Origin: Astropecten irregularis
Lineage: Eukaryota; Echinodermata; Asteroidea; Paxillosida; Astropectinidae
Direction: 5' to 3'
Assembly (NCBI GenBank): GCA_963971285.1
Contig: OZ020262.1
Location: 9,244,745 to 9,308,744, forward strand
Length of the DNA: 64,000 nucleotides
Below, piece after piece: positions 2,291 through 51,100 of the stretch. A model generated the notes under the pieces. That model was not told the DNA's origin and did no database searches. It worked only from the letters and a program-made list of their open reading frames with translations. Within the stretch, counting starts at the first letter, position 1. Every line of letters starts with the position of its first letter. The position numbers and the translations under genes were made by a program.

Positions 2291-5200
2291 TCAAACAAAG
2301 GTTATATTGGGGTCAGTTGAGAAACTGTCGTCATGGACACCATTATTAATCGTGCTGGACGATAACTCGGCATCTTGCGATCTGAAATCAAAATAAATCA
2401 AAATACCATGACAACACAAATAAAAAACTAATTCATGTTTGAAAGTTGAAAATTATTCAACCACCAAAATCATCATTGATTAAAAAGCCGCATCCTCTTT
2501 GAGTGATCCCCCATGTACTGTTTCTCAGGTTACAGCATTGCTGCGAGTATCGATGATAATTGGGGTATTGCGGTGTGTGAGTGGTTCCATGGCTTCTGAC
2601 TGCCAAACGAACAAAGATAATTGACCATTAGGGACACCACCAACATTGGGCTGGGTAGCTCAGTTGGTAAGAGCGCTGGTATGGTATTCCAGAGGTTGCT
2701 GGTTCGAATCCCACTCCAGTCAATTATTCTTTGAATGGCTTCTAATTGCCAAATAAACAAAGATAATTGACTATTAGGGACACCACAGGCTGGGTAGCTC
2801 AGTTGGTAAGAGCGCCAGTATGGTATACCAGAGGTTACTGGTTCGAATCCTGCTCCTGAAATTATTTGTTGAGATATTTGAAGGGAATATATTTCTCGTG
2901 AACTTACATGACGTTCCTCCAGTGCTGGCATTCCTCTTTCAGTTCCTTGATCTGCTTATTGAGTTTATTTCGTTCGTTGAGGATGGTTTCTAGCTTAGTG
3001 ATCAGCTCGTCAACCTACAGAGCAATCCAGCAAATGTTCAAGAAAAGATCAGATGAATACCAGTTCAAAGCAATACACAGCACAATGAATTTTAGCCGGT
3101 GACCTGCATTTGCTAGGTAGAACTTTGATTAGAGCACATATGAGGAGTGCTATGGCCTAGTGGTGTGTCATACTCAAGATCATGAGGCAAGTGGTGCTTG
3201 TGTCTTTGGGCAAGACGCTTTGTCACATATTGCTTCTCTTAACCCAGGTGTAAATGGGTACCTGCGAGGGTAGAGATAGCGTTGTGGTTTGATTAGCCTC
3301 TGTGTGCCTTACAGCAGGCGAGGCTGTATATATTCCCCAGGGAGTTGTGATGGTTTGAGGAATGTAAATATAGCCCAATGACCAGGGATGTACATAGAGA
3401 CATCATCATTGAGTATTAAGTGCTTTATAAAAGCTGAACTTTATTATTTCTATTATCATTATTCCATCGATCTTTCTTAAGACCCATCCAATGAGTTGCC
3501 CTGACTCAGGTGTGTTCAAACTTGCAACGCTTTTGTATCAACTGAAGCCACCAGCGGCCATCTTACCATGCCAGACACAATGGAATAACTATTGTTGGCA
3601 GATGGATTTAACTAACAATGGTGAGAGCATCTTTGTATTACCTTTGTATTTGGCCCTCCAAGATGGATACTTTTGGTTTCAGTGACCTATGTAGGTTTAT
3701 ATGGGGTATTGGGAGTCCAGATTTTTTTATAAGACGTCCGTGGTTCAAACCCTCCATTTCCAATTTCTAGCTCAAATGTCTTCACAACAAAAATGATCAA
3801 TTTTTTCTGTGCTTGACAAATCTGCCCTCGATCAGACAAGACTCCGATTTGTCATGATGTCTGTATAAACCGCCCTCTTGTGGTCTGTTTTGTGGAACGA
3901 CCGGCGACTTCCTACCTTCAACTGAGTGTCTCTCATTGTGATGTCGTTGTCAGTCTCGGCCTCGTCTGGATTCACTCCTTCTGACTTCTGAAGTTCTGCC
4001 AAGACGCCTCTCTCTCGACTAATATCTCGATCCAGCTTCTCCAACTCTTCCTCTTGCCTGAAATATTGTCCAAAAAGTCAGATTATGTCACAAAATTATC
4101 TATGGGAACTTTCCCAAAAACCCAAGACCAAAAATGGTTGACCAGACAGCGACTTACATTGTCTGGATCTTAATCATCTCCTGATAAACCTCGTCGGCCT
4201 TAGCGACAGCCTCATCCCGTTCCGTCTCTGCAACTTTCAAATTGTCTTCCATCTCTGCAATTTCCTCCAGGATTCGTTGTTCTTCCTCCTCTGCGCCGTT
4301 GCTGATCTGCGACAGACTCTCCCTGTCCGGGTTGGAGCTGTGACTGTGGGCGGGACTCACGTTACCCCCGGTAAGATTGGACGATCCAGGGACGCAATTC
4401 TAAAAGAGATTGAGAAAGAATGGTGGGTAGAGAGACCTACTCCTGCTATCTCTGATTCTTATACACCTGATATCTTTGATTCTATCAAACGTTTCAGCCT
4501 CACCCATGGAGTACCGTAATCATTTACGGAGGCAGAAACGTACCTTGTTCACAACGCCACTCACAGTCCCGACAGTCTGAGAGCTCAGTGTAGTCGTCTT
4601 GAGTTTCATTGTAGATTGGCGGATGTTCAGCTCTGGTCTCATGGTAACGATCCATATCTTAGGCACAAACATACAGATAAGGCCTGACGTACCACTAGCA
4701 ATGAAGGCCAAACTGCAGATGATGGAGTTGGTGATACCATTGGTCGTGAAGTAACAGGAGAAGAAAATAAACCTGAAAAAGACAAAGCAAGAATCGGTCA
4801 AATATATGGCAAGATACCATATAAGGCAATATATTAGCAACATACCATATAAGGCAATATATTAGCAACACACCATATAAGGCAATATATTAGCAACATA
4901 CCATATAAGGAAAGATACTTGCAACATACCATATAAGGCAATCAATATACCATATAAGGCAATATATTAGCAACTTACCATATAAGGCAACATGTCAGCA
5001 TGGCAAAACAGATGCCCCTTGAATCGTTGAACTGTCCCGGCAGCTTACGAGTCCTGAATGCTTTGTACAGACACAAGATGGCTAACACCACATTAAAACC
5101 TGAAAAAAGGATACAAAATAAACTAGACCTGTGTTTGTTGACAAACACTGAGCTGTTTCGCGTATGTTTTAAAAATAATATGAAAAACAAACATGAACGC

Positions 5201-8200
5201 AATTGGCCCAGTACAGAGAAATAGCGGTGTTTAAATTGTCGTAAACAACTACATGTATCAGGAGCGTCGTCACTCGTCCATCAATACTCGTACACTGTAT
5301 ACAGATTGGTGTACATACACATGCCCATGAGAAACATTGAATAGCCGAGTCTATTATAGACCAGCGCGCGTAGTATGTATGGTTGTGCATATGGGCGGTG
5401 GAAAAAACAAAATGAGTGATTTTCTAGCTATGTCGTGCTCCGTTCACGTGTACACAATTGGCGCACTACTATAGATAGCCTTATCAGCAGTCCAAAAAGT
5501 TCCAAAGCACGTGTTTTGTGTTATGTTTGACTCTAAATGGCAAAATTAATTATTCAAAAAAAATTAATAAAAAATCAGGCGATGACGTAATCGTGACGTC
5601 ACTTCACATAAGGGATACTAACATCATTTCCTACCTACCCACCAAGTTTCATTACGATCAGATATTCGCTTATATGCGTTTCTGGGAAAAAATGGCAAAA
5701 TTAAATATTCAAAAATCAATAAAAAATCAGCCGATGACGTCATCGTGACGTCACTTCAGATTTAGGATACCAGTACCATTCCCTACATATCCACCAAGTT
5801 TCATGACCATTGGATATTCCCTTATATGTGAATCAGAAAATCGGCTTTTTGATGACGTCATCATGACGTCACCACTTTTTGGTATTTTATGGCACGTGCC
5901 TATAGCCTAACAAACATTTTACCGAAAGAATTTCGAAAATACGATTTGTCGTTCATGAGATATAAAGAAAAGGTCCAAAAATTTAACAATTCGTATAAAA
6001 TCGCACGATGACGTCATCAACACTTGACTGCAATTTGTGTCTATAACACGTCCCCATATACTTACATACCAAGTTTGAGTTGCATCGGACTTGCCGTTCC
6101 GGAGATAAAGAGCCCTAAAATTTGCACTTTTATGATTACGTAACTGTGCACGTGATGACGTCATGATGACGAAATTGTTCGGCATGCGATTCAGGGTGGT
6201 GGTCTAACTATGTGCCAAGTATGAAGTTGATCGGAATTAGCGTTAGGGTAGAAGTGACTTGTAGAAAAAAACATGTGCATTGTCTATGGGAAAAAAGTGG
6301 AAAAAAAAAAAATAAGAAAAAAAAAAATAAGAAAAACAAAAGCTGTTCCGCTGCATGCGAAACAGCTAAAAAACCTTGTGAACATTTTTATCTCCCTTTC
6401 CATGTTAACGGTTGAGAAAAGCAACATCATTTAATATTCTTCACATCATGTTTTATGAGCCCGTCAGGAAAAGATAGTTGTGCAAATCAAGCGATGCTTC
6501 TGTCTTTCGCACTCAGTCATGCAGCACAAACTTGCTATGTACTACAGATATTCATGGAAACACCAAGATCAACTAAAAACAAACGGCCACACAAGCTAGG
6601 ATGATATACTCAGAAGATATTCCCTGGGTTGAACGTTCGCCGAGCATGACGTGACTCACCCACTGCAATACCGGGCCCAAGGTAGGAGGAATATGCACAC
6701 TGTAACAATGTGACCTCAGGGTCAGTGGTATCCTTGACAACGACCCCTGGCTCCAGCTGTAACCAAACAACTTGCAATGCAATCTGTATGGCTACGATAC
6801 CCAGTGCAAACATCAGCTGGTACTGTTAGGAGAAAGAAAAAATATATTATATCTTATATTTATATCTTGTGTATCCTGGGTTTACCTGCTCAGTGAGATA
6901 CACTGTTTTCCAGAGGTTCCCAGCAACTACAATATGAATTATGAAGGATGGTGCTACACGTGACCGAGTAGCAGGCTTTCATGGGCGCCCTTGGCTGCCA
7001 GCCACATCAACCCATATGATCATGAAGCACAGCTTAAGATCGAAAGTGTTTGGTTTTTGTGGAGGGAGGAAAACCGGAGAAAAACCCTCGAAGCATAGGA
7101 GAGAACCAAACGCACAACTCTACTAACATATGACCCAAGCCGGGATCGAACCCGGGCCACATTGGTGAGAGGCGAGTGCCCAACGCAATTTGCCACCTAT
7201 GCCCCCCTAAAAAGAAATACAGCATCAAACAAGAAAGACTCAAACAGAGGAATCAAGCAAAAGAATTATCGTCGTCAGCGTTACTGCTTTTTTTTTTGTC
7301 CTGATTTAATAGGTTTTAAAGAGATGATTCACGAAATCGAACCTGGATATTCAGGAACATTGAGGGCGCCCCATCTGACAGCTTGCGATTGAAGATGCAG
7401 GATATCCGATTGGTCTTCGTCAGCAGAGCGCCAACAAACACAGCAAAGCTCGTACCGACCATGACGATCTTAGCACTGCAGATTTCATCCGTCGGCATGG
7501 CAATGAAGAGAAACGTGGAGGAGTAACTCATAGCGATGCCAACCAGGAGGAGATAGCTTAGTTCGGTGCTGGTTGCTTTAATCGTTGCAGAGTGTCTGTA
7601 CCTGGGGATGAAAACACAATGAGTGTCAGGGTGCTAGACCTTGAAACGAAACTCAAACACACTCGTTCGGTTTCCCTTGTATTTTCTGAATCTATTTGTG
7701 TTGTAAAATCCTTGTGATACACGAGCTGCCTAGACTTTAAACTTGTAAAGTGGCTTCTGACTGGCACCCTGAACAAAGATAGTTGTCTATAGGGAGGCCC
7801 CATCATAGGGCTGGATAGCTCAGATGGTAGAGCACTGGTATGGCAGTTAATGGGTTATATGGCTTCTGACTGGAACCCTGAGCAAAGATACAGTTAACTA
7901 TAGGGAGGCCCCATCATAGGCCTGGATAGCTCAGATGGTAGAGCACTAGTATGGTAGTTAATGGGTTATATGGCTTCAGACTGACACCCTGAGCAAAGAT
8001 ATTTGACTCATAGGGAGGACCCATCATAGGCCTGGATAGCTCAGATGGTAGAGTACTGGTATGGCAGTTAATGGGTTATATGGCTTCTGACTGGCACCCT
8101 GAACAAAGATAGTTGTCTATAGGGAGGCCCCATCATAGGGCTGGATAGCTCAGATGGTAGAACACTGGTATGGCAGTTAATGGGTTATATGGCTTCTGAC

Positions 8201-11200
8201 TGGAACCCTGAGCAAAGATATTTGACTATAGGGAGGACCCATCATAGGCCTGGATAGCTCAGATGGTAGAGTGCTGGTATGGCAGTGAATGGGTTATATG
8301 GCTTCTGACTGGCACCCTGAGCAAAGATAGTTGACTATAGGGAGGACCCATCATAGGGCTGGATAGCTCAGATGGTAGAGTACTGGTATGGCAGTTAATG
8401 GGTTATATGGCTTCTGACTGGCACCCTGAGCAAAGATAGTTGACTATAGGGAGGACCCATCATAGGGCTGGATAGCTCAGATGGTAGAGCGCTGGTATGG
8501 CAGTTAAAGGGTTATATGGCTTCTGACTGGCACCCTGAGCAAAGACAGTTGACTATAGAGAGGGCCCATCATAGGGCTGGATAGCTCAGATGGTAGAGCA
8601 CTGGTATAGCAGTGACTGGTGTCCTGAGCAAAGTTAGTCGATTGCAAGAAAGCCCAACCCATCATGCCGATCCCAAAACCTCAGATTCCCAGTGCAGTTA
8701 AAATTATTCTCTGCTCGGGCCAAAATGATCTACCTCTCCATGGCCATGTCCAAAAGAAAGCTCCGGCCAAATTTACACCTACCTGATGTAGATGGCCAAA
8801 GTGAATCCCGTTGCCAGGAGACCAACAATGGTCAAGATGACCACAAGGATGGCCATAGCATGATCCCATTTCAGAAATACGACGGGATTGATCAGACAAA
8901 CTGTCTGATTCTCGTTGGTCCGTTCACCGTCTTGACACTCCAAGCACTGCAGGGAATTCTGGGTAGTGCTGATGCTGCCGGCTGGTCAAGAGGAAATGAT
9001 ATTTGAAACAATTTTAATCTCGGAAAAATTCCACCGTGGAAAATTGATGCAAATTGAGTCATGTGAAGTGATACTTACCCTCGCACTGATGACATTCCCA
9101 GCAGCATTTCGGTATTTGCAACGTGATATAGTTACCAGCAGCGCAATCTTCAGAGCATCTGGACACTGGGGGTGCTCTTTCATTCTGCCAATCAACATCC
9201 AGCCACGGACCGAATTTCAATGCTGGATCCCAATCAGTGACTTTCACAAAGGAATACTTGTCGTCGTGATACTGAGATTGAAAAAGAAAAGACAACAAAA
9301 TCCATTTCTCATTCCAAATATTTTAGTAATAACAGAAAAAATTAGGTGCTGGAGAAACTACAATTAATTTTCAGACTTTTTTCTTCTTCTTTTATGTGAA
9401 GCCTCTAACACGAATTGAGTTATGTTTCACTTGGAGCTATTAGACAAGATAGTAACGCAAACTGATCAGAACGTACACCAGGGGCAAATTTCATAAAGCT
9501 GCTTAGCACAATAAATTGCTTAGCACAAAAATAGCTTGCCCAATAAAACAAACCACCATAGAAAATTTCATTTGATATTCATGGTCAGCGAACAACAGCC
9601 AATTTGGTTGTTAATCCTGTTTTTGCTAAGACAGAAATGTCATGCTTAGCAAATTTTTGTGCTATAAGCAGCTCTATGAAATTGGCCCGAGGGTGTTTGT
9701 TATCTTACCTGTAAGTTGTGAATATCGTACTGCCCCATAGGGTCACCGTTTTCATCAAACATAAAGTTAGGATTAGTCAATCCACTGAAATTACAGCTCT
9801 TGACATAATCCAGATAACTCTCCAGATTAATGGTTCTTGATCCGCTCCAACAATCTACAAAAAAGATTACAGGAAACAATTTGCAGAACTCATCGTTATT
9901 GAAATGCCACAATTTCAGCCAGTTTATAATTTTTACAAATAGTTGCATTTTTCACCCACTTTTATTTTGACAAGTAATAAACTACTGCAAACTGCCCATC
10001 AACCAAAATGACTTGAAATATATCAAATGCTTTGAGTTAGAAGGGCCTGACATGTTTCAATTCTAGCAGGATCATTCTCAAAGAAAGATCCTGCTAGGAA
10101 CAAAATGTGTCACTCAGGCCCTCATATTAACTCCAAGCACTTTTATTTTTTAAGAAATTCAGAAATATTTCCGTCACAAATGCAGGGGTCACAAATTGCA
10201 AATCCAATGAAACTTCCAGCAATTACAATGACTCGATCTTCTGTCACCATCAAACCACAAATAATTACACAAAAGAGAACTTTTTCCAATAATTGTTTGA
10301 TAATTATCCAAAATCTTTGTTTTACAAAATATTTAGCTTACTAGCATCAAAGAAATCAAATTGAGCCTATGCATTACCTGTACAAGCTGAGATCATGTTG
10401 TGCAGTCCGTGCGCTAATGCATACACTGCGTCAATTACAAATCTGGCATGTGTGTCATCAATATTAGCGAATGTTTCTGTCCCTGTACAAAGTTTTCGTT
10501 TCGTCGTCTCAGCCGGGTCATAGGTGCAGTTAAAGAGCTCCCCCAATGTTAGCTGGTACCATGGATTACGCAGATTGGAAAATGGATCCAATTTGGATAA
10601 ATATCTGAGCAAGGATTGAAAACAAAGAACAGCAACCAGAGTTGTTACCATACAGAGAAATAATTTAACCCTGGTCCGCCTGCTTCATAAAGTAATTTCA
10701 TACTTTGGTTTTTGTTAAAGAAATACAGATTCATGGGCAAAACTATCAAGGAAGATACAGTAACAGTCATCTGTGAAAATTTCAGTCACATACGGTGCCC
10801 ACTTTTTGAGAAAACAGTGAAAAACATCCATGGTAATTAAAAAAATCTTTTCAACGTTATTTTTGAAGATCAAAATTGTTTTTGGCAATTGGTTTCACTC
10901 TTTTCTGGATAAATACAGCATTTCAGGTTGAAAAATGTTAACGGTATGTTTCTACCATCACCATCTTTATACCCTGTTAGTTAGGTAAATCTGTGGAGAT
11001 TTCTGTTTTGGTATGCTACCAAAGTATGCTAGGGCCTTTCTCAAAGCTGAGCTCTGGCTCAGGCTCCATTTCTTGCATCCGTTCTTAAATAACGGGTATC
11101 AAAATACGGTATGGCTGCGGTTCGGAAGTAGATTCTCTAGTTTGAAAAGTAAGACAGAGCTTCAGCTTCAATGCAAAACCACAACCTACATTTTCAGTGT

Positions 11201-13890
11201 ATGGATGACATGTCCAAGACGAAGTTGGAGCCTGAGCCGAAGCCGAGCTTTGAGAAAGGCCCATAGTACCTTTAGCAGGTGTGGAAGGAAGATATAACAG
11301 CATCTCAATCAGGATATGTCTCCACATCGTCAAGACTTACCTTTCAAATTGCTCATCCCGGCTGGACTTAGGGCTGATACCCAGCATGCCTGTGACCACC
11401 TGTTCCACACCCTCAACAGTCTGCAGTGATTGACCCCAAGAATCGCTAGCAATCCACGTTCTGTCCATCAAACCTTCTTCTTTGGCCTCCTTCAAGACAC
11501 GTCGGATGTCGTGCTTCAGGCAGAACGTGAAGATCACCTGGAATTGAAACGGAAACCAGCAAAGTCACAAATGTTTCTAATATTACTTAAGAGAAACCAG
11601 ATGAAGTACAGGCCTTGAGCTAACTTTTGTTCCTGGCGAGCCCACGGCCAGCTTACTTCAGATTTTACTAGCCCATTTAGATTTTTACTAGCCCGTACAC
11701 ATGTTGATCCATACCTTAACATGTAGGTTCTTGTTTTTTTTACTAGCCCAACGGGCAACCAAGGAAGTGAGTCTTGCTAGCCCGGAGTGGATTTTGCTAG
11801 ACATTGTACGCTGGGCTAGTACTAATTCGAACCCTGATGAAGAACACAAAAAAAGTGACTGGAAATACGACAAGAACTACCGATATCTTTGTGTCCATCG
11901 ATAACGTCTTCACAATATTGATGACCACATCATCCGGGCTGTTACGGTTTAAGCTCAGTGTATGGGCGATGCAGACATTCTTCGCTCCCAGTAAATCGCT
12001 TAACAACTCCATGCCAGATGTTCCGTAATTATCCGTCGTGAAGATAATAGCTACGTAGTTCCATCCCATGTCCACGGCTAGATCCGCCATCACGGCTGCC
12101 TGGTTTTTGTCCGATGCCACGGTGCGTAGGAAATAAGGATAGAGGTTCTTGTCACTTAGAACGGGACTGGAGGCAGAGTAGCTGACTTGAGGTACCTGGA
12201 ATAAACCTGGAGGAACAGAAGAGGAATTTGAGGTCAAAATCAATCTCCAAATAAGAACAGATTTATTATCAAATCACCATGGAAACCAGTGACCAAATCT
12301 AACAACTAAGGGCCTGTTTGTTTATGGCGAATCCTGCGGATCCGGATCCCATTTTTCGGATCCACGTCCTATGCAGGGTACGCTAAAACGGGATCCGGAT
12401 TCGCAGGAATCGTCATAAACAAACAGGCCCTAAGATCTGCAGCTATTCTATTGCCACAATTCAGTAGTAAACACAGAACCACCATCACCTTAGCAACTCT
12501 CAGTCTCAGTGATAGCATCACCGTGGTAACCATCACCACAGTAACCATCACTACAGTAACCATCATCCAACCAGGAACCTATATAATTCTTACCCAGCAG
12601 GTTAGCAACACCAGTTGAAGTGGCACTCGATCCTGTGCCTACGACTCCAATCGTCTGAGCATTTTCATTTGTGCAGGACTCTCCTCTTCGCGCTGTGATG
12701 AAGTTAAGAGCTTCCTACAAACATAAATTCAGGTTTTACAATTAATCATACATGATGGGTTTGTTGATACTTTTGCACACCATAACTATTCAAAACCCTC
12801 TACTTTTGTTTAATTTACCTTCACCACTTTTTCAAGCTTATTCTCAAGATTTTGAAAACAAATCGGCATCAAAATGCTACATAATAATAATAATAATAAT
12901 ATAATAATAATTTGGGCATTTATATAGCGTTCTTACACACAAGAAAGGTATCACAACGCTTTATACATTATTATTATCCCTGGTCATCGGGCCCATTTAC
13001 ATTCCTGAAACAATCTCAGCTCCCTGGGGAGTATATAGCCTGCAGCTGCCTGCAAAGCGCGCAGGGCTAATCAAACACACAAAGCCATCTCTACCCTCAC
13101 AGGTAAAAGCTTACATATACGTCTGATGCATTATATACGTTACTTGAGCCAGTATGAGTACACGTACATATTATGACATGTATGAAGAATTAGACACATC
13201 TAGAATCATATTCCAACATTGTATCCAGGTTACTGTAGTTACCATGGTTACTAATACTATAGTAGGCTGTGGTTATGAAATTTTCTATCAAATTCTGAAA
13301 TTCCAATTGTATCGATAAATTTCACAAATTACCCTCAACGCTTTATTTGGATCGGAGCAATCGTTCCTGATTTCAAATCCAAGCTTGACACCCGGTAAAA
13401 TATCAGATCGATTGTTGATGACATCCACAGCATACATCATGCTTTCCATTCTCAATCCAGTCAGCTTAAGAATCTTGGAGCAGGGATTAGATTCCCCATC
13501 TGGAATGAGAACGGCAAACATGCCGCCCAAAATGAAATCTCCATCTTGGTAGGCCACTAGCTGATCTGTGATGTCGGTTTCCTCAGTGGAAGTTAAGTCT
13601 GAGGGTAGTGAATCGGGAGCATTTCTACGATGTCTTGATTTGACACTGTTCATGGAACTTGAAGATTGTCTAACGTTAATCGCTCCCCATGTTGTGTTCA
13701 TGTCATCGCCAGTATCGTCGGCTGAAAACACAGACGATGAAAACATCCAATTTGCTGCCAGATTTTCCGGTCCAAATTTAGCCTTTTGGAATGTGAAAGA
13801 TTGACATAATGGGCACAGAATGATTAGCAACAAAATGTGCCCACTGAGATATGCCATGATTGGCAATAAAAGACGGTAAAAAACAAACAA
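2291..13890 (-). CDS. Class C GPCR, mGluR-like, with coiled-coil tail (16 exons)
   Basis: Spliced model of 1,106 residues. Exons in transcript order: 13890-13333, 12714-12594, 12206-11881, 11537-11341, 10604-10378, 9854-9709, 9271-9079, 8981-8783, 7601-7343, 6822-6660, 5099-4979, 4772-4544, 4399-4158, 4057-3916, 3014-2908, 2381-2291; all have GT-AG borders and matching phases. Order of parts: signal peptide about 1-32; linker with RHRR at 86-89; Venus flytrap domain from about 114 (GSSATS, QVPQVSYS, NYGTSGM, AHGLHNM); nine-cysteine NCD3G domain about 560-625 with CCWEC; TM1-TM7 about 630-890 (ELSYLLLVGIAMSY, LLTKTNRI, RTRKLPGQFND, RPELN); heptad-rich coiled coil about 944-1075. The 7TM and cysteine-rich parts are mGluR/CaSR-type, not GABA-B-type, whereas the tail recalls GABA-B receptors. 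It should sit in the plasma membrane as a dimer and signal through G proteins. Ligand unknown: the mGluR1 K409 equivalent is His453. MAYLSGH at residue 12 is an alternative start. Confidence 0.9.
2470..2725 (+). mobile_element. tRNA-derived SINE, family S1
   Basis: A 5' unique part (ATCCTCTTTGAGTGATCCC) is followed by a tRNA-like body from about 2648 with an A box (TAGCTCAGTTGG) and a B box (GGTTCGAATCC). The D arm and anticodon loop are recognisable, but the T stem is poorly paired, so this is a SINE head rather than a working tRNA. The same arrangement occurs at 58750-59015. It lies in intron 15 of the receptor gene. Confidence 0.65.
2787..2862 (+). mobile_element. tRNA-like SINE head, family S1, second copy
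   Basis: Repeats the tRNA-like body of 2648-2720 after a copy of the linker AAAGATAATTGACTATTAGG. A and B boxes are both intact. It is a tandem head duplication just downstream of exon 15 in transcript sense. Confidence 0.6.
3146..3466 (+). mobile_element. SINE with LINE-like tail, family S3
   Basis: About 320 bp starting with GGCCTAGTGG and containing CTTTGGGCAAGACGCTTTG and AAATGGGTACCTGCGAGGG. It ends in AAGTGCTTTATAAAAGC followed by ATTATT-type simple sequence, the usual form of a SINE that borrowed a LINE 3' end. An inverted partial copy is at 12945-13108. Intron 14 of the receptor gene. Confidence 0.55.
4805..4978 (-). repeat. Tandem array of copied 5' splice sites in receptor intron 11
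   Basis: Six units of about 26 bp abut the 3' end of exon 11. Read on the minus strand, every unit contains CCTTATATG followed by GTAT or GTGT. The true exon 11 end is the same CCTTATATG followed by GTAAGTTGC. The array therefore looks like repeated duplication of the exon/intron border, leaving six decoy donors (mostly GTATGT) downstream of the real one. Confidence 0.85.
5530..6185. promoter_or_regulatory. Cluster of CRE-type TGACGTCA octamers in receptor intron 10
   Basis: Seven perfect TGACGTCA palindromes are seen at 5594, 5735, 5746, 5853, 5864, 6009 and 6156, several as GATGACGTCATC. They sit in diverged tandem modules of about 120-140 bp that share an ATTCAAAA...CACCAAGTTTCAT frame. 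TGACGTCA is the classic CREB/ATF site. Whether it acts as an enhancer or is simply repeat-family sequence cannot be told from here. Confidence 0.5.
6294..6350 (+). repeat. Poly(A)-rich low-complexity tract
   Basis: A-runs interrupted by single T, G or C bases, followed by a short hairpin around AGCTGTTCCGCTGCATGCG and its near complement AACAGCT. No coding sense. Confidence 0.6.
7745..8640 (+). repeat. Eight-copy tandem array of tRNA-like SINE head (period 109-110 bp)
   Basis: Heads beginning CTGGATAGCTCAGATGG occur at 7811, 7922, 8032, 8141, 8250, 8359, 8468 and 8577. Each carries a polymerase III A box-like segment, then CTGGTATGGCAGTTAATGGG, and never a B box. The linker contains GGCTTCTGACTGGCACCCTG. 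The array fills most of intron 8 of the receptor gene. A shorter array of the same unit is at 59400-59850. Confidence 0.8.
9480..9689 (+). mobile_element. Inverted-repeat element family B
   Basis: Terminal inverted repeat GGGGCAAATTTCATAAAGCT against AGCTCTATGAAATTGGCCC. The inside contains the GACCATGAATATCAAATG-type block in inverse form. Family copies occur near 23.05, 28.5, 49.6, 56.8 and 62.6 kb. Intron 6 of the receptor gene. Confidence 0.65.
10690..11034 (-). mobile_element. Inverted-repeat element family A beside exon 5
   Basis: Runs from TAATTTCATACTTTGGTTTT to TATGCTACCAAAGTATG. It contains the shared ATACAGTAACAGTCATCTG and TTTCTGGATAAATACAGC blocks. It adjoins the segment that is duplicated at the left window edge. 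Confidence 0.6.
11029..11266 (+). mobile_element. Inverted-repeat element family D (GGCTCC-hexamer ends)
   Basis: Ends GGGCCTTTCTCAAAGCTGAG and its complement flank hexamer-like (GGCTCC)n sequence. The conserved core is AAACCACAACCTA with TTTTCAGTGTATGGATGAC. Other copies are near 31.9, 33.0, 35.7, 54.3, 57.8 and 61.7 kb. Intron 4 of the receptor gene. Confidence 0.65.
12310..12430. mobile_element. Harbinger-like MITE with TAA target duplication
   Basis: A 121-bp element with inverted ends GGGCCTGTTTGTTTATG and CATAAACAAACAGGCCC, flanked by TAA at 12307-12309 and 12431-12433. A 3-bp TAA/TTA duplication is typical of PIF/Harbinger elements. Related ends occur at 45878-46013 and near 50619. 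Intron 2 of the receptor gene. Confidence 0.7.
12945..13108 (-). mobile_element. Partial SINE family S3, inverted copy
   Basis: Reverse complement of the 3' half of 3146-3466: AACGCTTTATACATTATTAT, then CCCTGGTCATCGGGCCCA and CTCCCTGGGGAGTATATA. It is preceded by an (ATA/AAT)n tail around 12883-12925. Intron 1 of the receptor gene. Confidence 0.55.
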
Positions 13891-13934: not shown

Positions 13935-14477
13935 GGTCACACTAATCAAAGTCAACTCTTTTTTCTCGGCGTCAACTTCAGACAGAGGCGTCAACTCGGC
14001 GTCAACTCATACCAAATTATATTCTACATTGAAAATATATATACAATACTTCAATTAGTAGTATAAGATAGAATTTGCATTGGTTTCAGGTTATATCTCA
14101 TCTAGGAAAGGGAGATTTTTCCCTCGAAAAAAATCACCTTAAGCAACAAATCCGGAGGCCGCCATCTTGCCATTTACGGCACATGGACGATACCATTCAT
14201 GCATGGGTGTGCAAGTTATGCCTTGGACAATAGAGGGCACCTTTCTGCAGAGTTAATTACTTAAATTTTTATTTTTTTTCGAGGGAAAAATCTCCCTTTC
14301 CTAGATGAGATATAACCTGAAACCAATGCAAATTCTCTCTTATACTACTACATGTAATTGAATTACTGTATGTATATTTTCAATGTAGAATATAATTTGG
14401 TATGAGTTGACGCCGAGTTGACGCCTCTGTCTGAAGTTGACGCCGAGAAAAAAGAGTTGACTTTGATTAGTATGACC
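13935..14477. repeat. Long inverted repeat (about 200-bp arms) between head-to-head genes
   Basis: Left arm about 13935-14133, right arm about 14273-14477, spacer about 140 bp. The arms match almost throughout, including the GGCGTCAACT motifs and GGGAGATTTTTCCCTCG. It starts only 45 bp upstream of the receptor ATG and therefore lies in the presumed receptor promoter or 5' UTR. It looks like a foldback transposon; no coding capacity. Confidence 0.85.
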
Positions 14478-15137: not shown

Positions 15138-18100
15138 ATGGTAAGAATCATTCATTGCGTGTGACGGTAACAACTAACATTTTGGTAATAGATTTGATTC
15201 TGCTAATAGGCCTATTTCGTAATTTTAGTACAAATTAAATAAAATTAAAATCATCAAATAACCACAAACACAACAAGCTAACGTTAGGGAAACTCTAACG
15301 TTAGGCCCAGTAACTGGGGCGCTGAACTCCCTTTTTTGACTTTTGGGGTTGACGTTTTGGGGAAACTCACTGAATCTTTAACAATACTCAAATCTCAATA
15401 GACAATAGTCCTTGAAATGACTGTGCTTATTTGATGATTTTATTTCAATTTTACAATTTTGGGGTTTGTGTGCATTAGTCCACAAGGATTATTTTCAGAC
15501 GTGCACAATGATGGCTTCTAAAAAAGTTCTACTCTAGTTCTACAATTTTAAATTTAGACTAGGCCTACTATAAAGTACTAGGGCAGGCCTACAAAAGTAC
15601 ATACATGTTCTAAACTACAATAAACTATTATAGTATTATCTAACTCGCCTAAATATATTGGCCAGTGCAGTTGTGATTTCATCTTCAATAGGGCTCCGCG
15701 CTCGTGACGTCACATTCAGATGTTCGGACAAACAAGTCACACGTTGCCCAATTAACTTACATGTAAATGTTTTGAAATTTGTCCGAACATCCGGGTAAGT
15801 ATAGCTGTCAATATAAAGGGCGTATTAACTATTAAATGGCTCAAGCGCGGAGTCCTATTATTTTATATTAATTAATGGAGTGCAGGGCTTTGATTTTTGA
15901 GGGATATTGTGGGGGTCTGAAAAGAATCCTTGTCTCGGTATTTCAGGACCGATGCACACTAACCCCCAGAATAATCTGATGCTTTTTGTTTTGCAGTGAA
16001 TATTTTTCTTTCATCATGTTCATTGGCCATGCTGGCATTCTTTCCGCAATTAAAGCTATTTTACCGTTCTTACTCATATTCCATTTGCAGTATTTGACAA
16101 ACCTCCGGCAAAATAACATTTTAGGGAAAGAAGGCATGACGTATCGAGAATTGGCCGATCAACCATTTGTCCACAATTATCCTTTTTGTTTTGTTCACTA
16201 CTTAGTCTTAGTCTTACTCCTTAATTTTGACTGATTGCCTTACCAACATGCACATTCATTAGAAACTAGACATCGGCTCCAATAAATTGAATTTGGGGAG
16301 TCAGGTTGGCATAGCGGTTCTTTCCTCGCCTTTCACCTCTGTGGACCGGGTTCAAGTCAGGCTCAGTCCACAAGTGGATTGGGTTTTCAGTCCCTACCTG
16401 ATTCTGTGGGTTTTGCCCAGAATATTACTCTGGGGTTTTCTTATTCCTCCCACCTCTAAAACTGTATCTTCTTCTCCGCATCACCTTTCCTTAAAAAAGG
16501 TTTCATCAGGCTTTCGAGCTACAGTGCCTTGGGCACTTTTGAGGAATCCTCGGTGTCATTACCAGAAATAAATAATAATAATTTGTTGATTTATCTGTTT
16601 TTACTTCTGTAGAGTGGTCCAGGACCTCATAATCTGGACAGAGTACCAGACCAAGATGGCTACCTCATCATTAACGGAGATGGTGCTGTAATGGCCGTAA
16701 GTTTCTTCATATACTTGTCTACTGACCTCTTTGAGTCTTTAAGGGCCAGTGGACAATTTCATGGAGCTGCTAAGAACAAACAAATGCTTAGCACAAAAGT
16801 GTGTTTTTTATTTTCCAGTCATCTGGTGAGTTAGAAAACGACGAGAGAATTGCCGGAATTTTGATGAATATGGTACGCCTGGCCAGCAGAGTCAAGATTA
16901 ATCCAGACAAGCCTGAAACATTCAAGAGACTATCAGGTAATTATGTAGTCTGAGTATAACTCGTTAAGTACAAAAACAGAACAAACATACTACCGGTACT
17001 TACAAACGTCTGATACATACATGTGTGCATGCAAATTTCATGCAACGTGGCACATCAGCCAATCAGATGTGTTTTGAGAACATTTCCGTCTGGGTTGTGA
17101 TCAGGGTTGTTTGATTTAAATCACTCGATTTAAATCATTGATTTAAATCATGATTTAAATCAATGGAAAAAAATCCAAAAAATCGGTCATAAAAATCAAT
17201 CATGATTTTTTTCATTATTTCATGATTTTTTTTAACGAAAATCAGAATATCTTACTGAAAGAACACTTGCATTAACTTTTGGCTTAGTTTTTCCACTACC
17301 GGGGGTAAAACAGGGTGTCTTAAAACAGTTTATGTTGTGTTTTTACAATGAAATTTTATTGTACAAAATACGCATGCATGTATACACATATGTATGAAAA
17401 ATGAGGCAGTATCCTGAAGCAAAGTACAATGTATACAGCATTACTTGTAATTTACAAGTATCTATACAATGAATAGAATTACACAGTAAAATAATACGTA
17501 CATGTACATGTATGCAACTGCAAAGAATTATCTTTTGTTTTTGTACATCACTACATCTTGACTTTGCACAATAATACTGCCATTATTAGCTCTAATACAC
17601 ATGTACTGAGATGCAAATGGACCACTGGTACGTACATGTACAAGCCATGAAACATCTTTGAATGTGGTCTTAAACATCCCATCAGCAAGGAAGCAATAGA
17701 GTATGCCTGTAGTGACAGTCAGTAACATTTTCTGTTTTTTGTTGCTTTGGATTTTTTTGCTACATTTTAATGACCACAATGCCCAAGCGACAAGAAGATG
17801 CAATTTGGCATCATTTATGATTTTTTTAAGCAAAATGTTATGATAGGAAAATGTTATTACGTAAAAACAATTAAGATTTTAATTTAAATCAAAAAAATCG
17901 ATTTAAATCAAAAAAATCTGATTTAAATCAAATAAATCTGATTTATTTGATTTTTTTATAAAAATCATGATTTTTATCAACCCTGGTTGTGATGGAGGCT
18001 GAGGATGTTGATTGGTCAAAACTTAGAGGTCAGTGCTGGCTTGCTTGCATAATTAATCAGAACATCTGCATGCATGTGATAGACGCTTGCTCGCTGTACG

Positions 18101-33300: not shown

Positions 33301-35897
33301 TGTTTTGATTCTAGCAGGATCTTTATCAAAGGCTTTGATAAAGATCCTGCTAGGATCGAAACGTGTCTGGCCCTCCTAACTTACCCAAAGCATTTTCAAA
33401 CTTACAGGTCATTATTTTTGCTGATGAGCAGTTTGCAGCAGATTCTCTGCTACGCAAGTGTGTGAAATTGGGACCATAATAGTGACCATGTAATCCCCAC
33501 GCTAAGCATTAAATCATTACCTGCCAAGGATTCTAATTTACAGCAACCTACATGTATTTGTGATACATAAATCTCTGTGCCAAGCAATCATTGGGGAGGG
33601 TTTAGCAGCCCCAAGACATGGGCCTAAGATGCAACCCTGTTGAACAGGTCTCTAGTTCAAATCGGAATGCAAGTTAAGCCACACCATTGGAGCATAGCCT
33701 GTAACTGCCGTCATAGCAAAGTTTGATACATACTCTTGAACTGACGCCTGAGCAGTCCTGTTGAGCCAGGCTGGATGGGCTCCGTGTTGCAGACTGTGAT
33801 TCTTATTCCATAATACTCCAACATGGTCTAGTATCAGCCTCTCTGCATAGTCATTGCTAACTGTATTAAGATGATGACACATCAGAGTGATCTTATTGTT
33901 ACGTTATATTTGACTTCCTGCTCCAATTAAAGAAGGCATTGATGCTCAACTTTTCTTCCAGATATGACTTAGTACTTGATACCAATACAAAATGACACAA
34001 TCTTTGACAAACTGTTTCATGCAAAAGATCGTCACTTCTATATCGAGCTGCAGCCTTACGTGCAGTTACAAACATGATAGCAAACACCCATCCATCACAC
34101 ACACACACCCATCCAAAAAAAACTTCAACATTTTGAAACAATAGAAAAAACTTCAACATTTTGAAACAATAAAATAAACTTCAACATTTTCCATTTACAA
34201 TAATAACAACATTATTTTGGACAACGCACCCATCAAAAAAAAAAGCGTACTACTACATAGGCTTCGCTTTGCTTCGCAGCTCGCCAAAAACTTCTACACA
34301 GGCAACAAAATTGGGACAATTTAAGTCAAAATGAATTCAATCTTGTTGGATTGATTCAACTGGCGATTTATATTCTCGTCTTATACTCACCCTTGATAAT
34401 AAGGAAATGTTTGCCAGCCACTGCTATATGCTGGCATCTTATTTCAGGTGGAGGTAGGACAGTCAATTCTGCTTTTACTGAGAGAAAAATGGACAAATAT
34501 TCCTCTTTTTTAGATTGTGGATATTATATCAAATGCTTGATGCCCCTGGTCATTGCCTCGGTGCCCCTGGTCATTGCCTTGCTGCCCCTGGTTATTGCCT
34601 TGGTGCCCCTGGTCATTGCCTTGGTACCCCTGGTCATTGCCTTGGTGCTCCTGGTCATTGCCTTGGTGCCAATGGTCATTGCCTTGCTGCCCCTGGTCAT
34701 TGCCGTGCTGCCCCTGGTCATTGCCTTGGTGCCAATGGTCATTGCCTTGATGCCAATGGTCATTACCATGGTACCCCTGGTCATTGCCTTGGTGCCCCTG
34801 GTCATTGCCTTGCTGCCCCTGGTCATTGCCTTGCTGCCCCTGGTCATTGCCTTGCTGCCCCTGGTCATTGCCTTGCTGCCCCTGGTCATTGCCTTGCTGC
34901 CCTTGGTCATTGCCTTGTTGTCCCTGGTTATTGCCTTGGTGTGATGGTGCCCCTGGCCCCCTGGTCATTGCCTTAGTGCCCCCGGATACTACCTTAGTGC
35001 CCCTGGTCACTCCCTTTAACAGTGATCCTGTATTTATAGCCTTACTGTCTTAGGTCATTGCATCAGTCAATCATGTAGACATTTCATTTAATTGAATCAG
35101 AGTGCCGACATCTAAAACAATGCATTGACGTCCATTTTGAGTAAAAGTAAAAAAAATACTAAAAATCATCCTGACATTTTTACCAGTGCATTTCAACAGA
35201 GGGCGCTGTAACTGAAAGACATCCTCCATGGGTAGTTGCATTAGGAGATCCAAGAAGTTGTTATCTCGTGGGTATCTGCGTGACGTGGCCTGGCTCGTCA
35301 AGTGAACGGCTACCGTCAGTGTGCGTAGTGAACTTGGCAAGGCGTTCACACAAGCACTCAAGGGAAATATGACTGTGTCATCTAGGACAATGGGCTCGCT
35401 CTAAAAGGGAAATTGGGAAGTAAAAGATACGAAGAATTGATATTACCTACAGGAATATTTTGACCATGTGTCCACATTTTACTTATAATAACAGCTTTGT
35501 ATCTCTAACCCTCTGCACCTATCACACAAGACAAGAACTGCTTACCACACATTAACAGTCTCCACAAAGGGGAACTGGATAATAAACCACGTATTACCAC
35601 ACAAACTACACTTAATACACTGTGGTGACTGTGGTATTTAGGATATGATACAACACGTACCAAAGGGGAAAAACCATGGCCCTTTTCCAAACCTCTGCCC
35701 CGGCTCAAGCTCCGGCTTCATTTCGTGTATCCATTTTTAAATAAAAGGTAGCAAAATAAAGGCTTTTGGCTGCGGTACAGAAACTACACTGTAGTAGATT
35801 CTCTGGCTGAAGAAAGAAAACAGATTTTCAGCTTCAATGAAAAACCACAACCTATATTTCCAGCATATGGATGACAGAGCTGGAGCCGGAGCTGGAG

Positions 35898-48100: not shown

Positions 48101-51100
48101 GAGGAACTGTGTCTATTAGATCATTTGAAGGGCATTTAGGCAATGACCAGGGGCACCAAGGCAATGACTATTGGAGCACCAAGGCAATAACCAGGGGCAC
48201 CAAGGCAATGGCCAGGGGCACTAAGGTAATGGCCAGGAGCACCAAGGTAATGGCCAGGGGCACCAAGGTAATAACCAGGGGCGCCAAGGTAATGACCAGG
48301 GGCACCAAGGCAATGACCAGGGGCACCAAGGCAATGGCCAGGGGCACCAAGGCAATGACTATTGGAGCACCAAGGCAATGACCAGGGGCACCAAGGCAAT
48401 GACCAGGAGCACCAAGGCAATGACCAGGGGCACCAAGGCAATGACCAGGGGGCACCAAGGCAATGACCAGGGGTACCAAGGCAATGACCAGGGGCACCAA
48501 GGCAATGACCAGGGGCACAAAGGCAATGACTATTGGAGCACCAAGGCAATAACCAGGGGCACCAAGGCAATGCCTAGGTGCACCAAGGTAATAACCAGGG
48601 GGCACCAAGGCAATAACCAGGAGCACCAAGGCAATGACCAGGAGCTCCAAGGCAATGACCAGGGGCACCAAGGCAATGACCAGGGGGCACCAAGGTAATA
48701 AACAGGGGCACCAAGGCAATGACCAGGGGCACGAAGACAAGGACCAGGGGCACCAAGACAATAACCAGGGGCACCAAGGCAATGACCCTAGGGGCAACAT
48801 ATCCATTTACTTTTCTTGCCTTCATGAAGTCCCTGCCCAGTTAAAACCCTCATGTTTCGATCCTTAACCCCTTGAATATAGATTTCACCCATTGACATTG
48901 TGTTCATGTTTCTTGTTTCTAGATTTATGTATCGTCACATCGGAAGTTGGTTTGACTGGTTCATGTTGCTGTACATACTAACCATACTGACACTCATCTA
49001 TGTAGGAACACTTATGGTGAGTAATCTTCATCTTCACCAGTTCCCAATTTTGTAACTCTGCTTACTGCAGATTTTACCGCTTATGATTCTCATTCTACGC
49101 TTACTGGGTTAGCGTCAACAGGGATGTGAGACTTCAGATTGAAATCTGAATTTTTTTTTTTATTTTTTTTTTCAATTTAATTTAGATTTTAACTCTGAAT
49201 TTCAGCTTTGTTTGTATACACCTGCTCTGTTTCAGCTTTTTCCTTCATGTACTTGGTGTTTCCAGGTGTACATAATAAACCCTTACTTTATAAATTTTTT
49301 ATAAAATTTCAATAATTAATACCTCCATTTGGTCAATTTTACCATTTTATCCCAAATGCTTCAATTTATTCTTTATAAAAATCTATTGAGTTATTATATA
49401 TCCCATTTGGAGTATATTTGCATTAATTATAATACTCAACCTTGTTTTATACCTCCTTCTAGGTATTAGCAATAGCTCATGGTGTGACGGGACGTCAGCT
49501 ATACCTCCATTGGGTCCATAAAATCCCCATCGTCCTAACACTAATAGGTTGCATTGTGTCTGTGATCATTCTCAACAAGTTTTGGGGGAGCGAATGGGTC
49601 TTAATTGCAATTACGCTACAGGTGGGTAACCACGGGCCAATTTCATAGAGCTGCTCAAAGCGCAACATTTGCTTAAGCATGAAAAGTCTTTGTTGATCAA
49701 ACTTGATTACCAACCAAATCTTCATGTGATGTTTACTGCTTTTGACTTATATTCGGCCGTTGTTTGCTGAGCAGCATATTCATGAGGAGTTTTGGTTGGC
49801 ATACTGATTTTATTTATCAGGGTTTTTTGGTGCTTAGCATATTTTGGTGCTTAAGCAGCTCTATGAAATCGGACCCATTATGCTGTCCCAGAATACGTCA
49901 TACATGTGTGTTGTTTTACTCAGTACAAGTAATAAACAACTGCTCATCAGTCGAAATAATGACCTGAAATATATAATGCTTGGAGTTAGGAGAGCCTGAC
50001 GTTTCGATCCTAGCAGGATCTTTCTCAAAGGCTAAAGAGCCTGCTAGAATTGAAATAGCCCTAAGCAAAGATTTGAGGCTTTGCATGGTGACAATTGGTA
50101 TGTGGATCAGTTTGTGGAAACCTGACCATGTAAAAATCGTTCTTACTTTTGCACTTTGTCTCGTTCGCACTTATTGTAAGGTCTCAACATTTCGACTAGC
50201 CTGCTCTAGAGCTAGCCTGCTCTAGAGCAGGCTAGTCGAAGCGTTGAGACCTTACTCTAATTGCGAACAAAATAGAAGTGTGAAAGTATGAACAATTCTT
50301 ACATGGTGTTTCCGCAAACCGATCCACATACCAATTGTTTTATTATTAACAAAAGTCTACATTGAGAATACAATATCCTATGCCACTACAAAGTGACCGA
50401 GGAAATGGAAAAAAACACACTCCAAAGTCATGACCTTAGATGACCTTCTATTTATCCATACTGATATGACGTTTCCTCTCTGTAGGTTACGGCACCTGTT
50501 CTACAGATAGTCGCTGTGGTGGTCCTGACGGTCATTACGTGGCCACTGGCTGGTCTGTGGTGGAGGAATGGCCATATTGGTTAGTACACAAGACATTCTA
50601 ATAATGGTTAAATCAAGGGCCTGTTTGTTTCAGGCACACACTCAGTGATCCGGCGGGCAAAAGCTGCTGCGGATCGCATTTAAGAAAAATTGAGTCAGAT
50701 TGTTTGCTTATTTTCTCGTGACTCAGATGTCCAATTGAACTCAAATTTTCACAGGTTTATTATTTCATGTACATGCTTGATCAGACAAAGTGTGAGTGTT
50801 GTTCTGTGATCTTTACCAATCATGTATTAGTGTGCCCCTTTTTATTACTGTGGTTCTCATTTCTGACCGACCCATATTTTGGGCTCCATCCAAAGAAAAA
50901 AAACAACTTTTTTTTGCACCGCCGACCCTGTCCAGAATGACATAATATAAATTCAAGAAAAACAATCAAAATTCCAGAATTTCTGGATACAAATTTTGCC
51001 AAAAGGCCTAAATATTTTTACTTTCTATCACAGAAATAATAAAGAAAATATTCAAACGAGATTACAGTGAATACAATGAACATTTCTCATCTTTTTCTTT

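Follow-up and report, generated by a model that had tools for sequence, protein, structure and literature searches.

A cysteine-rich class C receptor gene of the sea star Astropecten irregularis with a predicted coiled-coil tail

Background

Can a class C receptor that carries the nine-cysteine domain (NCD3G) of mGluR/CaSR-type receptors also end in a natural coiled-coil tail, and what would such a tail do? GABA-B receptors, whose coiled-coil tails are well known, lack NCD3G. The question is raised by one gene in a window of Astropecten irregularis DNA (the whole stretch analysed here, 64 kb of contig OZ020262.1), for which a preliminary description, made from the sequence alone, proposed an mGluR-type head and seven-transmembrane (7TM) region followed by a GABA-B-like coiled coil. 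To study how cysteine-rich class C receptors pair, GABA-B coiled coils have been grafted onto them (PMC5582870). A natural coiled-coil-tailed receptor that is probably already paired through its head would let the role of the tail itself be asked, be it the choice of partner, the holding of an effector or the resting state.

Results

A sixteen-exon gene with three class C domains

The receptor gene runs on the minus strand from 13857 to 2291 of the window, in 16 exons that join into a single open frame of 1095 amino acids (first codon at 13857, stop at 2291-2293, no internal stop). Splice sites were picked manually from site listings; all 15 junctions are GT-AG with matching phases, and the donor of exon 9, GTTCGA, fits the consensus weakly and was absent from the filtered listing. 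Introns measure 97 to 1560 bp, those entering the tail being 144 (intron 12), 100 (intron 13), 901 (intron 14) and 526 bp (intron 15). The features are given below; assignments for exon 1 and exons 3 to 12 come from the gene model and Pfam.

13333..13857, minus strand: exon 1, aa 1-175; start codon, signal-like hydrophobic stretch, N-terminal extension, start of the Venus-flytrap domain
13624..13635, minus strand: candidate furin-like site RHRR, aa 75-78, in the N-terminal extension (pattern R-X-K/R-R)
12594..12714, minus strand: exon 2, aa 176-216; Venus-flytrap, with C189 as candidate inter-subunit cysteine in the LB1 loop
11881..12206, minus strand: exon 3, aa 216-324; Venus-flytrap
11341..11537, minus strand: exon 4, aa 325-390; Venus-flytrap
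10378..10604, minus strand: exon 5, aa 390-466; Venus-flytrap
9709..9854, minus strand: exon 6, aa 466-514; end of the Venus-flytrap
9079..9271, minus strand: exon 7, aa 515-579; first part of the nine-cysteine domain NCD3G
8783..8981, minus strand: exon 8, aa 579-645; remainder of NCD3G and TM1
7343..7601, minus strand: exon 9, aa 645-731; TM2-TM3, motif LLTKTNRI
6660..6822, minus strand: exon 10, aa 732-786; TM4 and ECL2
4979..5099, minus strand: exon 11, aa 786-826; TM5 and ICL3 motif RTRKLPGQFND
4544..4772, minus strand: exon 12, aa 826-902; TM6-TM7, RPELN, start of the tail
4158..4399, minus strand: exon 13, aa 903-983; Ser-rich linker, then first part of predicted coiled coil 1 (4327..4158)
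3916..4057, minus strand: exon 14, aa 983-1030; remainder of predicted coiled coil 1 (to 3973), linker, start of predicted coiled coil 2 (from 3945)
2908..3014, minus strand: exon 15, aa 1031-1066; core of predicted coiled coil 2
2291..2381, minus strand: exon 16, aa 1066-1095 and stop; end of predicted coiled coil 2, C terminus
2294..2305, minus strand: C-terminal ITFV, candidate class I PDZ ligand (pattern S/T-X-V)

Hydrophobic windows in exon 1, at aa 1-24 and 8-26, are signal-like by hydrophobicity only, and the N-terminal extension comprises about 100 residues. Three Pfam families lie above their cut-offs in the one protein: ANF_receptor (136-514, E 4.7e-76), NCD3G (549-598, E 4.1e-11, 43.0 bits against a cut-off of 38.9) and 7tm_3 (615-864, E 1.2e-59). 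The nine-cysteine domain announced in the preliminary description is borne out by this Pfam match and by nine cysteines in the region, C553, 557, 570, 571, 574, 577, 591, 594 and 607, and the three 7TM motifs that it named are all present on the minus strand at the places listed above. Among the best 60 of 182 PDB sequences, the highest scores went to mGlu8 (455.2 bits), mGlu3 (451.5) and mGlu5 (441.4), with E-values of 3.6e-135 to 5.1e-131, followed by CaSR (399.8; 1.9e-118) and TAS1R3 (255.1). At the C terminus, ITFV fits S/T-X-V, which we take to be the class I PDZ ligand pattern; the broader [ST]-X-[VIL] would occur at a random end with a chance of ~3.7%, given the composition of this protein.

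Several repeats occur in and around the gene. A near-perfect inverted repeat resembling a foldback or MITE-type element stands shortly upstream of the start codon (window 13935-14477), with arms of 123 nt (97%) and 78 nt (99%). A 109-bp unit is tandemly repeated at 7751-8613 (7.9 copies, within intron 8) and at 59412-59780 (3.4 copies); the unit carries a tRNA-like stretch, GGATAGCTCAGATGGTAGAGC, and looks like a tRNA-derived SINE turned satellite. Rfam calls tRNA at all four of the matches at 2649-2722, 52167-52239, 58623-58696 and 58939-59012, and ARAGORN reports tRNA-Thr(GGT) at 2649-2722 and 52167-52239. Since the match at 2649-2722 falls in one of two tandem copies (2589-2850) within intron 15, it is likelier SINE-derived than a gene. 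Arrays of a 21-bp unit (GGCAATGACCAGGGGCACCAA) stand in opposite orientations at 34536-35016 (23 copies) and 48138-48796 (31 copies). A divergent neighbour gene on the plus strand covers about 16613-16935, its first exon perhaps near 15138; two exon translations give weak matches to Roadblock/LC7 and LAMTOR5, below cut-off, and we presume the gene to be LAMTOR4-like.

Tail exons in the receptor frame

Exons 13-16 look coding, in the same frame as the receptor. With a codon-usage score trained on 10,317 codons from other receptors of the same genome, the values of exons 13, 14, 15 and 16 in the receptor frame were reached by 0, 0, 0 and 1.6% of 2000 intron segments. Exons 5 and 6 have homology in their favour, yet their scores were reached by ~23% of segments, so the measure is imperfect, and the tail exons are not the weak ones. 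These values bear on the proposal that exons 13-16 are a separate coiled-coil gene and that the receptor ends near residue 902-909, which we hold to be extremely improbable. Read-through of intron 12 would add only 7 aa before a stop; a tail-less form is therefore possible, and its product would be near the usual length for the mGluR/CaSR-type family. A separate gene is nevertheless hard to reconcile with introns 12 and 13 of so few base pairs, with splice sites and phases that join unbroken, with the lack of AATAAA or ATTAAA in intron 12 and of a start codon at the beginning of exon 13, and with four exons on the same strand that are coding in the same frame. Short introns and same-frame coding exons also make unlikely the case that the preliminary description had named against itself, in which exons 13-15 come from another gene.

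Two predicted coiled coils

The tail (870-1095) comprises a Ser-rich linker, predicted coiled coil 1 (927-1011), a proline-containing break, predicted coiled coil 2 (1021-1072) and the end STDPNITFV. Coiled coil 1 has a best 28-residue score of 1.72 and breaks register near the join of exons 13 and 14; coiled coil 2, which follows a gap at 1012-1020, reaches 1.99. Weight was placed less on the absolute scores than on controls run through the same script, GCN4 (2.00) and GABA-B2 (1.88). When 929-1064 was shuffled, the maximum was reached by 2 of 500 shuffles and the length by none of 500 (mean shuffle maximum 1.46), and 127 of the 136 residues exceeded P 0.5 against a shuffle mean of 37. A coiled-coil predictor run over the tail, as the preliminary description had suggested, therefore returns two coiled coils that shuffles rarely match. 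AlphaFold2 models each of two tail exons, taken alone as a single-sequence monomer, as one helix: residues 27-79 of exon 13 (mean pLDDT 74 for residues 31-40, then 94, 96, 96 and 89 in the next ten-residue blocks) and residues 2-35 of exon 15 (mean pLDDT 97.6); as monomers, these models are uninformative on pairing.

It is very unlikely, in our estimation, that the heptad pattern is merely that of a charged single helix or an effect of composition. Coiled coil 1 is very acidic, with a net charge of -12 over 929-980, and the shuffles already score high, which would fit such an effect; the rarity of shuffles that reach the maximum or the length argues against it, as does coiled coil 2, which is net neutral and in which L, I, V or M fill 9 of the 13 a and d positions. 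The hydrophobic residues of coiled coil 2 extend beyond a and d to e, at I1035 and L1042. Among the 14 g-e' pairs listed, E948-E953 and E987-D992 are repulsive and D994-R999 and E1058-R1063 attractive; charged or bulky residues occupy core positions at E942, R963, E998, R1045 and W1062. On this predicted register, the heptad charges leave the choice between self-pairing and pairing with a partner undecided. The sole R-X-R of the tail is RER, at 997-999.

By these sequence tests the receptor gene looks real and the original observation is sound: one frame in 16 exons joins an mGluR/CaSR-type receptor to a tail that scores near GCN4 and GABA-B2.

Position within class C and predicted ligand

In a 7TM tree of 20 rows, the receptor groups with CaSR and two receptors of the same genome (98/96), and once four long-branch rows (own_L008, GABBR2, own_L006 and par_L036) were dropped it stands with CaSR and L005 (99/97; L numbers label loci of this genome). 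GABA-B2 sits apart on a long branch in the 7TM tree and is not grouped with the receptor's 7TM. Placement inside the mGluRs was rejected with AU p 0.024 (7TM) and p 0.008 (full length), values that are weakened because the groups were named and the tests set up after the first tree had appeared. The full-length tree (17 rows, with 10 of 19 aligned paralogue rows and partial sequences for L014 and L017) pairs the receptor with CaSR at 90/96, which is not firm, the composition of CaSR being flagged; mGlu5, L015, L005 and L006 are in the 7TM trees only. In a tree without CaSR, built from the extracellular part and half of the 7TM, the receptor falls with mGlu3, mGlu8 and L016, and its identity is 33.6% to mGlu3, 32.6% to mGlu8 and 29.9% to CaSR. 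The trees that include CaSR place the receptor outside the mGluRs and on the CaSR side, its exact place being unsure. The mGluR-type label first given to it thus holds for extracellular and 7TM parts of mGluR/CaSR type and is lost in the strict sense; likewise the 7TM, for which a class C phylogeny had been proposed, is of the CaSR/mGluR kind and branches outside the mGluRs, towards CaSR.

The same genome holds likely mGluRs of class I (L015, 100/99 with mGlu5), class II (L016, 99/99 with mGlu3, keeping 8 of 8 glutamate-site residues checked) and class III (L014, 98/96 with mGlu8). L017 is a tentative class IV candidate, within the mGluR group, apart from the three classes and with Q at the K409 site; in the full-length tree the receptor lies outside the group that holds it.

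For the ligand, we compared the receptor with mGlu3 at R64, R68, S151, T174, D194, Y222, D301 and K389, which we take to be its glutamate-site residues. S151, D194, Y222 and D301 are kept, T174 is replaced by S (as in CaSR), and in the glutamate pocket R64 becomes T and K389 becomes H. R68 is matched by R in one alignment; in another, that R matches a CaSR arginine one place earlier, the stretch being one residue short. In the receptor alignments the K409 site is H and the R78 site is ambiguous. From these aligned residues we infer an amino-acid-like ligand, and glutamate is doubtful. In the LB1 loop, C189 is like the cysteine of disulphide-linked mGluR dimers, in a variable loop whose alignment is ambiguous.

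Searching the genome with the first 902 residues gave at least 51 matches (50 of 140 candidates scored), 27 of which start at or before query residue 121 and end at or beyond 717, with 23 of those on C18; a PF00003 search gave at least 135 matches (150 of 235 candidates scored). On C18, C14, C16, C21 and C29 there are at least 27 long single-frame receptors with a flytrap, NCD3G and about half of a 7TM, many of them in tandem clusters; where the second 7TM half was covered too, it lay in another frame or exon. Across 19 paralogue rows, most of the three residues that contact the glutamate side chain have gone, and a chemoreceptor expansion is possible. The cox1 on contig C168 contains 10 in-frame TGA and is free of stops under the echinoderm mitochondrial code, with AAA read as Asn at conserved Asn sites; this agrees with an echinoderm, although flatworms and hemichordates use a similar code. 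Two further cox1 loci came to light: one outside the mitochondrial contig and free of in-frame TGA (L038, G000:C131:32162-33484) is probably from a bacterial contaminant or associate, and a partial mitochondrial-type copy (L040, G000:C25:9951047-9952018), which has 7 TGA and lies in a contig no shorter than 9.9 Mb, is probably a nuclear insertion of mitochondrial DNA.

Uniqueness and origin of the tail

Searched exon by exon, a procedure that a diverged copy could escape, the 475.7-Mb genome returned five matches to the tail at E up to 1 (25 of 25 candidates scored), all of them exons of this gene, and a tail borrowed from another gene of the genome was therefore rejected. A phmmer search of the 226-aa tail against PDB sequences gave seven matches up to E 10 (best E 0.31), none of them GABA-B; as the library includes GABA-B coiled coils, a GABA-B origin was also set aside. 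In Pfam, the tail met 15 families up to E 1, all below cut-off, the best being PUMA_CC (E 0.0029). The expanded receptor family was rejected as a source, too, since the receptor lies outside it in the tree and the family tails examined are short, with no coiled coil predicted.

Coiled-coil scores for other receptors of the genome were computed on the open frame containing the end of the 7TM, so that later exons may be missed, and the TM7 exon and tail of L001/L014 were left out. Within that scope, 12 of 13 receptor fragments scored 1.14 or less, and an extracellular exon of L016 reached 1.43 (P 0.825), likely a false positive. Three further class C tails scored 0.87, 0.94 and, for L006, 1.57 in one 28-residue window; of the 14 other class C tails scored to the end of the open frame, 13 stood at 1.12 or less, with L006 as a short candidate. 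The class C 7TM of L006 (G000:C18:33344-37084) belongs to the CaSR side, and its open frame continues into a tail of 451 aa, which is unusually long.

In the open-access literature we found no natural NCD3G receptor described as having a coiled-coil tail; "coiled" and "C-terminal" are absent from the main text of PMC6307864, as is "coiled" from PMC6267866. Relatives with the same layout may sit unremarked in databases. What is new is the combination of domains, a long coiled-coil tail joined to a cysteine-rich class C receptor; the parts themselves are known.

Discussion

The reading we prefer, with a probability of about 0.6, is that of one intact cysteine-rich class C receptor whose tail is mainly a homodimeric, semi-rigid stalk. 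The flytrap would bind an alpha-amino acid or a related ligand, as backbone-holding residues are kept or conservatively changed and glutamate side-chain residues partly changed. Two subunits would pair through their heads, probably with a disulphide at C189; head closure would draw the two membrane domains together, and rearrangement of the 7TM would lead to G-protein coupling, as expected from the family. Beneath the membrane the two tails may zip into a coiled coil, and the resulting stalk would offer cytosolic partners its binding surfaces as well as the PDZ-type ligand at its end. Its role would lie in support and display more than in the selection of a different partner subunit, the function of the tail being an inference from sequence throughout. 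The preference for a homodimer comes from finding no paralogous tail and has no positive signal behind it; the two repulsive g-e' pairs and the charged or bulky core residues are points against it.

Two other roles for the tail deserve weight. In GABA-B receptors the coiled coil masks an R-x-R retention signal and helps the heterodimer reach the surface; GB1 of the fly receptor carries GB2 there via the coiled coil (PMC12499500). Chimeras of mGlu2 and mGlu4 that bear complementary GABA-B coiled coils and a KKXX retention signal were used so that only heterodimers surface (PMC5582870). By the same device, the coiled coil of the sea star receptor could join a different class C subunit and mask a retention signal so that only the pair surfaces, which we judge unlikely. 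RER would supply the R-X-R, the charged core residues could disfavour self-pairing, and the 1.57 window in the L006 tail keeps a different partner subunit possible. Yet no second locus with a similar tail appeared among the 25 candidates scored, L006 was alone among the 14 other class C tails, scored to the open-frame end, in exceeding 1.12, and the search of PDB sequences matched the tail to no GABA-B coiled coil. With an acidic residue at its X position, RER makes for a poor retention signal, and the candidate loop cysteine C189 resembles that of disulphide-linked mGluR dimers. The heterodimer pairing or trafficking control suggested in the preliminary description finds no firm positive support in these results.

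Alternatively, and in our view rather unlikely, the helices might fold on each other or bundle to recruit RGS-Gb5 or another effector, after the manner of GPR158, whose tail has coiled-coil helices of 27 and 22 residues joined by an eight-residue linker, recruits RGS7-Gb5 and is conserved in GPR179 (PMC8611064). The two coiled coils of the receptor are separated as well, by a proline-containing linker, and I1035 and L1042 lie at e positions as in multi-helix packing; set against this, coiled coil 1 spans ~85 residues, far more than either GPR158 helix, the tail has no PDB match at E below 0.3, and GPR158 lacks the flytrap head that the receptor has. The homodimeric stalk stays our preferred account of the tail.

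On a wider scale, it is a tentative possibility, with the odds against it, that a distinct class C lineage of echinoderms, sister to the CaSR side, gained a coiled-coil tail independently, and that this tail fixes dimer make-up or effector choice. If true, the receptor would be a natural counterpart of the laboratory mGlu and CaSR chimeras tailed with GABA-B coiled coils. Should the tail prove real and independent, more than one class C branch would have acquired a coiled-coil tail.

Comparison with known systems

CaSR shares with the receptor the flytrap, nine-cysteine and 7TM parts, a THxR stretch and a STxVANLLGLF run in the head, and joins it in the trees that contain CaSR; it differs in sequence, identity being 29.9%, and we know of no natural coiled-coil tail on CaSR. 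PDB chains of CaSR, in entries such as 8szf and 8szi, do include GABA-B coiled-coil sequence, which is taken to be engineered. The mGluRs of classes I-IV have the same domain order and gave the highest PDB scores (best 60 of 182 sequences), but the receptor falls outside them, has T and H in place of R64 and K389 and carries a coiled-coil tail; its 7TM is spread over five exons, whereas five other class C 7TMs of the genome are each one open frame. GABA-B subunits resemble the receptor in having a class C 7TM followed by a coiled-coil tail, predicted in the receptor; unlike them, it has NCD3G, and its tail does not match GABA-B chains. GPR158 and GPR179 likewise join a class C 7TM to a two-helix cytoplasmic coiled coil, so that the view of such tails as a GABA-B hallmark, on which the preliminary description drew, was too narrow; GPR158 itself has no flytrap domain, its helices are shorter (PMC8611064), and the PDB search gave no sequence match between it and the receptor tail. 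Nearest in layout are the engineered mGlu2/mGlu4 and CaSR chimeras, NCD3G-type receptors with a coiled-coil tail (PMC5582870; PDB chains). These are man-made, whereas the receptor is a genomic gene with a coiled coil of non-GABA-B sequence, and within the open-access literature its layout is otherwise met only in such laboratory-made receptors.
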